NCBI RefSeq assembly: GCF_000186865.1
Contig: NW_008705563.1
Coordinates: 1,248,473 to 1,312,472, forward strand
From: Aureococcus anophagefferens
Taxonomy: Eukaryota; Sar; Pelagophyceae; Pelagomonadales; Pelagomonadaceae
Reading direction: 5' to 3'
DNA length: 64,000 nt
Below are positions 1 through 56,300 of the stretch, in pieces. A program made the position numbers and the translations under genes. How positions within the stretch are numbered: position 1 is the stretch's first letter; each line of letters opens with the position of its first letter. The notes beneath the pieces were generated by a model that was not told the DNA's origin, did no database searches, and saw only the letters and a list, made by a program, of their open reading frames with translations.

Positions 1-106
1 CAGAGATGATCGCTCGTCCAAAATCAGCCAAAACGAGTGGAAAACGGCCGAGATATGAGGCTTTCAAGTTTGGAATTTCGCTCTCTTGTCCTGCCCTGGC
101 GTCGAC
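1..106 (-). mobile_element. Introner element, family 1, truncated by window edge (acts as intron)
   Basis: Read on the minus strand, the ARM gene runs ...TAC CG, then donor GTCGAC, then the element start CAGGGCAGGACAAGAGAGCG. The family core (GTTTTGGCTGATTTTGGACGAG) follows up to base 1. The presumed 8 bp target duplication GTCGACGC is at 99-106; its partner lies outside the window. The element is in the same orientation as the host gene. Confidence 0.8.
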
Positions 107-53300: not shown

Positions 53301-56300
53301 CGTTGATGTTTTTTTTGGAACGCGCGCGCGCGGAACACTCACATTGAAGCGACGTTGAATCTCTCTTTTGCCGCCCAGGCGCGGCCGCAGGCGACGTTCC
53401 TCGCGCACGCGTCCGACCGGCTGCGGCTCGCGACGACGCGGCGCCTCGCCTTCGCCGCGTCGACGAAGCTCAAGCAGTTCAAGGCCGCCTGGTACCTCGG
53501 CGGCGCCGACGCGCTCCTCGACGCGGCCAACGACCAATATAAGAAACAGTTCAAGAAGGCCGTCGGCGCGAAGACGCGGCGCGGCGCGGCGCACGACGCG
53601 CACAACGACCGCCTCGAGCCCGTCGCCAAGGTCGTCGAGACGCAGCACATCGGCCCCTACGCCGACCGCACGTCCGTCAAGCCCAAGGAGGGCGACCGGA
53701 GCAAGCTGCCCCCGGACAGCGCGTCCGCGAAGGACGACGCGAAGAACGTCTGGGCCGCGAAGATCGACATCGGGAGCCAGTTCGGCCAGTCGCCGCACCT
53801 GCGCGTCAAGAACGTGGCCATCTACCACGGCGCCTGGGCCGGCAACCCGACGCACAAGATCCCCAAGCCGGGAAGTCGGAAGCGCGCGGAGGAGCTCAAG
53901 GCCTTCGCGCCGCACGGCGAGGGCTTCCTCGAATTCCTCGACGGCTACGGCTGCGCGGAGGAGGAGAAGACGCTGAAGCTGACGATCTTCCGCGCGTCGG
54001 ACATTCGCGTCGCGGACCTGCTGTCGAGCGACCCCTACGTGCGCGTCGAGTGCAACGGGCGGACGTTCCGCACGCGCGTGAAGCGGCAGACGCTCAACCC
54101 GGAGTACAACGAGACCTTCGAGGTCGACGTGTCGGACCCGGCGGAGGTGCTGCGCATCTCGCTCTGGGACTGGGACCGGCTGAGCGCCGACGACTTTTTG
54201 GGCGACGTGCTCGTGCAGTTGGGCGCGCTGCCGAACGAGGGCCGCCGCGCGTTCCGGCGGTGGTTCCGCGTCGGCGACTACCGGCCCTACCACCCCATCT
54301 GGCGGCGGTCCGACCCGCTGAAGCGCGAGCAGATCCACGACCGCGGCGAGATCGAGGTCGAGCTCCACTGGCAGGACAAGCCGGGCCCCGAGGACTTGGA
54401 CCGGAAGCGGCTCCGGCGCCGCGCGTCGCGGCGGCTCCAGGCCTGGGCGCGGAACCGGCTCGCGACCTTCGAGAAGCTGGACCGGCGGCGCAAGAAGCTC
54501 GAGGCGGACCGCGTCGTCGCCCACGCGTCGACGATCATCCAGGCGGGCTACCGCGTCGCGCGGGCGCGGCGCGTCGTCCGCATGATCAAGGTGCGGCGCC
54601 ACGCCGCCGTCAAGCTCGAGAGCTTCTTCCGGCGGCGCATCGCCTGGGAGGCGCTCCAGGTCAAGCGCAAGGAGTACCACGCGGCGCGGAGGATCCAGAT
54701 CGTCGCGAAGCGGCGCGTCGTCGCGACGGCGCGGATCGCGAGATTGCGCATCGTGCTCTGGATCGAGCAGACGTTCGCCATCTTGACGATCCAGGGCATG
54801 GCGCGCATCGTCCAGGCGCGGGAGCGCGTCCTGGAGAAGAAGGCCGCGATCCGCGAGGCCGAGCTCGCGGAGCGGCGGACCGCGCAGACGCAGGGCGTCG
54901 CCGCGCGGTCGGACCCGGCCTGGCGCGCGCGGCAGCAGGCGATGCAGCACATCTCGCGCAATTTACGGGCCTGGGACCTGAACTGGCTCATCTACTACGG
55001 CCGCGACGCGACGTTCGGCACGAAGCGGCTCCGGCGCATCGCGATGCGCGCCGCGAAGACGATGATCTCGAACGCGGGCACGAGGATCCGCACGGTCTAC
55101 GGGCCGGCCATCGTCCTCGAGTACCCGGCGCCGCCCCTGGACCACGAGTTCGCCGACGGCGACGACGACGACTCCGTGAACGCGATCTATCGGAAGTCGC
55201 AGGTCGGCCTCCGCTTGGAGATCGCCCAGGAGAACATGGGCTTCAAGGGCGGGCCCGTGCGCGGCGACCAGCGCGGCACGGTGGAGATCGTCCAGGCGGG
55301 GGACGGCGGCGGCGACGGCGCGGCGGCGCCCGAGGCCGCGGGGCCCGCGCCCGCGGAGCCGGAGGAGCCGGTCGAGGTCGGCCTCCGCGTGCCCTCGAAG
55401 GGCTTCGTCCTCGTCGAACTGCTGGGCTGCCGGGAGCCGCTGGACGTGCGGCCGTCCCTCGACGCCGCGGACCGCGAGGAGATGGTGGAGAAGGCGCCGC
55501 GGCACGAGGCGACGATCCGCCTCGGCTCCGTCGACGCGTTCAAGTCCGTGCTCGACCGCCTCGTCATGCTCCAGTGCAAGTTCCGCTTCCTCCAGGCGCG
55601 GTGGCTCGTCGAGCGGCTGCTCCGGCAGACCATCGCCGCGCGGACGATCCAGGCCATGGTCCGCGAGTGGCTCGTGAAGCGCGTCGCCGCGAAGATCCGG
55701 CTCCAGGCGGCCGCGCGCATGTTCCTGGGCAAGCTCGCGCTCCGCAACAAGCGCCGCGAGGTCGAGGCGGCGAAGACGCTCCAGCGGGCCTACCGCATGA
55801 TGCACGCGAAGCGCGAGCTGGACGTGAGGCGCAGCATCCAGGGCCCGAACGCGATCCTCGTGAGCTCGGAGTACGACATCGAGTTCAACGCGGACAAGAC
55901 GCTGGACCACAACCCCAAGACCTTCTGGTGCTCGCGCAGCGGCGCGACGAAGAAGCAGTGGATCGTCTACGACCTGGGCGCGCCCATCTGCATCGGCACC
56001 ATCGAGCTCCAGGTCCGCGAGGACACGACGGCGCCGCGGAGCTGCGTCGTCGAGGCGTGCAACGCGGCCAAGGGCCACTACACGACGATCTTCGCCTTCG
56101 ACCTGCCGGCGCCCAAGTCGCTCGTGCCCATGGCCCAGGTCCTGGCGAAGCAGCCCATGGACTTCCACAACCGCAAGCTCGCGGCGCAGCGGCGGAAGGA
56201 GGCCGCGCTCGTGCGCCACCCGGCGAAGATCACGGTCCGCATGGACGGCGGCCGCACGTGGTGGCGCGTCACCGTGCCCACGGAGGTCTACAAGGTGCGG

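Follow-up and report, generated by a model that had tools for sequence, protein, structure and literature searches.

The window, a 64,000-nucleotide stretch of the Aureococcus anophagefferens genome (C3:1248473-1312472; genome of 49 Mb in 86 contigs), carries twelve copies of short elements with terminal inverted repeats. A sequence-only reading of this DNA had described the copies as near-identical. Comparison of the window with itself (blastn, E ≤ 1e-3) recovered all 12 intervals and no extra copy, while the near-identity needs qualifying since the copies form two families. The sole additional match to the 12 pieces in the window (blastn, E ≤ 1e-3) was an 18-bp piece adjoining 27475-27677. 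Family A comprises the eight copies starting at 1, 9723, 27475, 29220, 33598, 36786, 46634 and 53178 (pairwise identity ~74–96%, blastn), and family B the four starting at 2430, 4844, 28882 and 30988 (~76–93%, blastn). The two families share a core of ~53–62 bp at ~76–81% identity and differ in their ends (blastn). Family A elements run CAGGGCAG...CTGCCCAG, with inverted repeats that contain one mismatched pair at base 2, and family B elements run CTGTGTGGAAATC...GATTTCCACACAG. The symmetric ends of family B (CTGTGTGG...CCACACAG) give a CAG terminus in either orientation. Followed along the gene, a typical family A intron has the form exon / GYNNNNNN CAGGGCAG ... CTGCCCAG / GYNNNNNN exon, where the 8-mer is the duplicated target.

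Family A copies are found in genes of diverse predicted function. The first (1..106, minus strand) is cut by the window edge; its intron 5' end consists of GTCGACGC, a putative duplication, and CAGGGCAGGACAAG, with the partner of this duplication falling beyond the border of the window. The copy at 9723..9917 (minus) interrupts an ankyrin-repeat gene with frame-continuous exons, is flanked by GTGCTCGA/GTGCTCAA and forms a predicted GT-AG intron. At 27475..27677 (plus), a copy with an inverted core (M2), flanked by an 18-bp direct repeat (GCGATGATCGACGTCGAC), forms a predicted GC-AG intron inside a glycosyltransferase-92 domain, and the match to this domain spans the junction in the spliced protein (Pfam scan, E 1e-14). 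The copy at 29220..29419 (plus; GT-AG; 10-bp direct repeat GTGCTCCGCC) shares its open frame with the family B copy at 28882. A diverged copy at 33598..33771 (plus; GC-AG; GCGCCGGG/GCGCCAGG) lies in a RING-finger-like gene whose match is under the Pfam cut-off, and a second copy with an inverted core (M2; 36786..36985, minus; GT-AG; duplication GTGTGGAA) lies in a DnaJC11-like gene whose match starts just before the junction. The copy at 46634..46835 (minus; GC-AG; duplication GCGCCTGC) interrupts a major-facilitator transporter gene, with the domain match stopping at the junction; the copy reported earlier at 46634-46827 is present, and the intron extends to 46835 because the first duplication copy is part of it. 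The last copy (53178..53378, plus; GC-AG) has a duplication, GCGCGGCC, whose match runs on for 5 bp, and is held in a spliced open frame of 4,809 amino acids with LRR, IQ, C2 and MORN matches (Pfam).

Among family B copies, the internally shortened one at 4844..4970 (plus; GT-AG; frame-continuous) carries the duplication GTACTACT at both ends. Across its junction, the related proteins P0001-P0004, known from protein sequence alone, read (P/S)EQYYFKTW uninterrupted. The closest named relative of this protein, JL722_2936 of A. anophagefferens, is 79% identical in a BLAST alignment that covers 99% of the query, and 95% identical over aligned columns when missing blocks of the JL722_2936 model are set aside. 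The copy at 28882..29084 (plus; GT-AG) has an eroded duplication and lies in a sulfotransferase-like gene (match just under the Pfam cut-off), and the copy at 30988..31193 (plus, core on the minus strand; GC-AG), with the eroded pair GCGCGACG/GCACGACT, lies in a 2OG-Fe(II) oxygenase gene, upstream of the domain. At 2430..2634 (minus), the predicted intron GTCTGCG...CACACAG has a hand-set boundary and no recognisable duplication, and joins frame-continuous exons in phase 1; the Pfam scan found no domain in the spliced piece around it. Plausible domains, some under the Pfam cut-off, were present in 9/10 spliced pieces scanned.

The claim that the copies are flanked by duplications of about 8 bp held for most of them. 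Duplications are exact over at least 8 bp at 4844, 27475, 29220, 36786, 46634 and 53178, and have one mismatch at 9723 and 33598. The claim did not extend to three copies, namely 28882 and 30988, where the duplications are eroded (2–3 mismatches), and 2430; intron boundaries in the window were placed manually, and for these three there is no clear duplication as confirmation. We also assessed 39 genome copies most like 29220, namely the best-scoring 40 of 2046 candidates from a genome search with that copy, less the window's own. The 8-bp duplication was exact in 35/39 and within one mismatch in 38/39, in a set that leans to young copies because it was picked by similarity. Among 60 loci picked by 5'-end pattern, 54 had a duplication within one mismatch; a single long element accounts for two of the remaining six.

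These loci (40 of the 302 matches to a G/C variant of the family A end, for which the control gave 85, plus 20 CAG copies of 1199) were also used to examine whether the duplication extends into the element. Counts were made on 54 rows with dinucleotides entered by hand; L067 was dropped, as were L105, L108, L109, L111 and L112 (A loci without a duplication within one mismatch). Copying of exon sequence past the duplication by every A copy with a non-A second base was rejected, as CG starts matched the exon in 9/29 cases compared to 7.0 expected (p = 0.25); matching at no more than expectation, CG starts resemble simple A-to-G variants. The exon past the duplication was matched by 0/15 CA starts and by 7/10 starts that were neither CA nor CG (1.1 expected, p ~ 1e-5). 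This fits some insertions carrying a 10-bp duplication that replaces two element bases, and the window copies at 29220 (10 bp) and 27475 (18 bp) have the same look of a longer duplication.

Similar introns recur at unrelated gene positions. In 264 kb comprising the window and 200 kb downstream (28.4 kb masked), we counted 28 copies, sorted into 16 of family A and 12 of family B, and masked self-comparison of these 264 kb yielded no third introner family that could be bounded. Genome-wide, the 5'-end pattern of family A had 601 + 598 = 1199 matches and that of family B 250 + 277 = 527, with a control of 0 for each, so the copies are not due to chance; the 302 matches of the G/C variant are further to these. 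Within the 264 kb, the A pattern had 7 matches and the B pattern 8, and comparison with the 16 and 12 copies counted there puts the genome totals roughly at ~2,700 family A and ~800 family B copies. Copy density in the same 264 kb extrapolates, again roughly, to ~5,800 in total. In viral contigs, one A-core and one A-end pattern gave 0 matches each, in a collection that may lack records closely similar to this genome.

Other repeats are present in the same region. Two copies of a repeat of ~90–100 bp, 83% identical and unrelated to the introners, lie at L017:7170-7271 and L024:6367-6455, the latter just upstream of an ATG and flanked by a direct repeat of ~15 bp (GGCAATATTGCATTG). A tandem array with a period of ~147 bp (L025:8122-10000; units 76–83% alike) reaches the end of the stretch taken, and three tandem copies of a ~126-bp repeat occupy window positions 7549-7923 (71–75% identity to the reference copy). 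Paralogous gene pieces, mostly 71–81% identical, are located at window positions 42068-42991 and 44521-45353 and near 4267 of L023; two open frames among these pieces had no Pfam match.

Splice-site dinucleotides were assessed with a site finder, into which 99 loci were entered and from which 93 family A sites were obtained. Of these sites, 89/93 start with GT or GC, compared to ~19% of exon dinucleotides. GC accounted for 49 sites, GT for 40, GA for 1 and other dinucleotides for 3, against exon backgrounds of 0.147 for GC, 0.041 for GT and 0.071 for GA, such that GT is favoured about threefold over GC relative to background. The real exceptions are L063 and L048 (GA); the other two are artefacts, with L112 being part of a long element and L041 misplaced (it reads GTCCCTCG), which gives a corrected count of 90/92. 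At the acceptor, the element closes in CAG. Duplicated targets that start with GA were seen in frame-continuous exons at L048 (GATCGGCC) and L008:9020-9222 (GATCTTCT, minus strand), which suggests that these two copies may be spliced as GA-AG introns. U1 snRNA (RF00003), sought as a changed U1 accompanying GC donors, was not found, and the controls were silent too.

In family A, the core is found either way round, with CAG...CAG termini retained relative to the gene. Read in the sense of the core, 46 elements had the termini CAG...CAG, 26 CGG...CAG, 9 CTG...CTG and 6 CTG...CCG, with the remainder being single variants or misreadings by the crude method used to locate ends. Relative to the gene, both core orientations (M1 and M2) therefore have CAG at the 3' end, and CAG, CGG or an exon-like sequence at the 5' end. 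M2 made up 8/18 pattern-picked family A copies on C1, excluding the long element. On a tree of 109 elements based on inner columns (87 M1, 22 M2; 15 labels by hand), 10 changes of orientation label were needed (8–10 in bootstraps, which had not settled) compared to a mean of 20.6 for shuffled labels, with most forks unresolved and well-supported branches forcing only 2 changes. One M2 copy, L055, groups with the M1 copies L046, L048 and L120, and within these four the private differences of L055 are restricted to the two penultimate bases, a grouping that a single inversion event explains. This pattern of end versus core orientation suggests that the core inverted between its flanking inverted ends, which would have taken place within inserted elements.

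Two long relatives bear on the origin of the acceptor. One (C1:618576-619054, 479 bp) has ends that match perfectly over the outer 20 bp and no recognisable duplication, and the other (C32:77547-78048, 502 bp) has ends that match perfectly over the outer 17 bp and is flanked by the duplication CGCGCGAC. Both run CAGGGCAG...CTGCCCTG, closing in CTG without an acceptor AG. Their outer parts are alike (95% and 99%), their middles are unrelated, and no additional copies were among the matches listed in searches with both interiors. If matching ends represent the older state, these sequences suggest that one penultimate T-to-A change created the acceptor, and the two elements may show the step that turned a transposon end into a splice acceptor.

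We tentatively propose, at a little short of even odds, that family A arose from a MITE with matching ends (CAGGGCAG...CTGCCCTG) by one penultimate change from CTG to CAG, after which the core flipped between the inverted ends with the outermost bases fixed. Recombination between these ends, or template switching from one to the other, would bring about the flips. Alternatively, the two core orientations may descend from two separate master lineages that gained the acceptor at opposite ends, perhaps with conversion, a credible possibility with the balance leaning against it. The M2 clusters L106/L108/L113 and L109/L119, together with M2 clustering on the tree in excess of shuffled labels, speak for separate masters, whereas the position of L055 among M1 copies from which it differs privately only at two penultimate bases speaks against them, as do the 8–10 label changes needed on the tree, though only 2 are forced by well-supported branches. 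Should core flipping be correct, an insertion can turn its core around and still function as an intron, and the splice signal belongs to the ends rather than to the body.

Whether the copies behave as introns was assessed by a frame test that used codon bias, with the large gene at 47319-61949 as training sequence, and asked for the same strand and frame of the flanking exons across the predicted splice. The frame was continuous on the predicted strand in 48/49 cases, including 38/39 genome copies (L043 fails) and 10/10 window copies, among which 53178 lies next to the training sequence. Among the 17 other complete copies of the 264 kb, 12/15 passed a further test with hand-set boundaries, 2430-2634 being one of them. 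The failures were 176495, 177553 and 84174 (joined coordinates of the 264 kb), and 101464 and 257836 were left out because their boundaries are unclear. The flanks of 84174, a family B copy (L008:174-380), appear to code on the strand opposite to the one implied by its GC start, and this copy may be poorly spliced or a different kind of insertion. The location of the copies inside genes at exon junctions, asserted by the sequence-only reading, was thus borne out for 11 window copies, whose flanking exons code in one uninterrupted frame on the strand predicted. Nor were copies equally common between genes, as 38/39 of those most like 29220 and 22/25 in the 264 kb, a sample taken irrespective of copies in which 25 of the 28 were frame-tested, lie in frame-continuous exons.

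Removal of the first duplication copy together with the element restores the coding sequence exactly, judged by sequence. Left unspliced, the insert would bring an in-frame stop in 7/10 window copies and shift the frame at 28882 and 30988; the copy at 33598 does neither and could be read through in frame without a stop. That the copies are ordinary MITEs sitting unspliced in exons or between genes is scarcely credible: acceptor-less relatives exist and 33598 stays in frame, yet such elements would account neither for frame continuity in 48/49 cases and GT or GC at 89/93 sites, nor for the stops and frame shifts that most window inserts would introduce. Spread through RNA, with spliced intron RNA reverse-splicing into transcripts and then re-entering the genome, a route put forward for introners of fungi, is very improbable, since inverted ends and 8-bp target duplications are marks of DNA transposons and the core is present in both orientations, even if exact splicing and the placement of tested copies on the coding strand of genes would fit.

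The inverted ends, the 8-bp duplications and a reading frame that is restored on the strand which the ends predict together support the earlier proposal that the copies are DNA transposons whose insertions are spliced, and we consider each copy to be, with a probability of roughly 0.96, an introner-type MITE, a non-autonomous DNA transposon that moves by cut and paste. On landing in an exon, such an element would duplicate 8 bp of target, and where this 8-mer, read in the direction of the gene, starts with GT or GC, the first of the two copies would become the 5' splice site and the final CAG of the element the 3' splice site. The spliceosome would then excise the first target copy and the element, such that the second target copy stays and the mRNA is unchanged, and insertions without a GT or GC start would presumably be lost by selection. 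The transposase would be provided from elsewhere. Searches of the genome gave no match to the hAT transposase domains PF05699 and PF14291, with controls silent too, to the KDZ domain PF18758, with controls silent and masked stretches read as N, or to the MULE domain PF10551, for which 3/14 controls matched and masked stretches were likewise read as N.

The consensus of hAT ends begins CAGGG, and hAT-type MITEs share with the window copies an 8-bp duplication and CAGGG-like ends, a resemblance only. Huff, Zilberman and Roy reportedly described the introners of A. anophagefferens in 2016 as short non-autonomous DNA transposons that are exactly spliced, with one splice site said to be carried by the element and the other co-opted from the duplicated target. 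The window copies agree with these in species, length (~200 bp) and mechanism, and nothing decisive differs; as the species is the same, the finding in the window is real and already known. Citing literature confirms a prior description of introners in this species: the relevant passage of a Pelagomonas paper credits A. anophagefferens introner elements of ~210 bp to Huff et al. 2016 (PMC9481584), and a passage of an Amoebophrya paper also names them. Parts of the survey of Gozashti et al. 2022 describe DNA-type introners with a duplication and inverted ends, as in the window copies, and GC and GA 5' splice sites (PMC9860276). In the Aureococcus sp. MAG family of its Fig. 2F, both splice sites come with the element and the transcript grows by 12 bp, whereas the window copies fit no addition (PMC9860276). 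Introners that co-opt GT or GC where the target is rich in G+C would generate GC-AG introns in large numbers. Such introns were the subject of a 2011 paper whose authors we take to be Iwata and Gotoh. According to a section of that paper, 39.6% of A. anophagefferens introns are GC-AG, an excess it called an enigma (PMC3033335), and 49/93 introner sites here are GC. Co-option of GC is thus a simple possible source of this large fraction. Large-scale intron gain through introners is well supported, with this alga as a type case, and the window is a clean example of it rather than a discovery.
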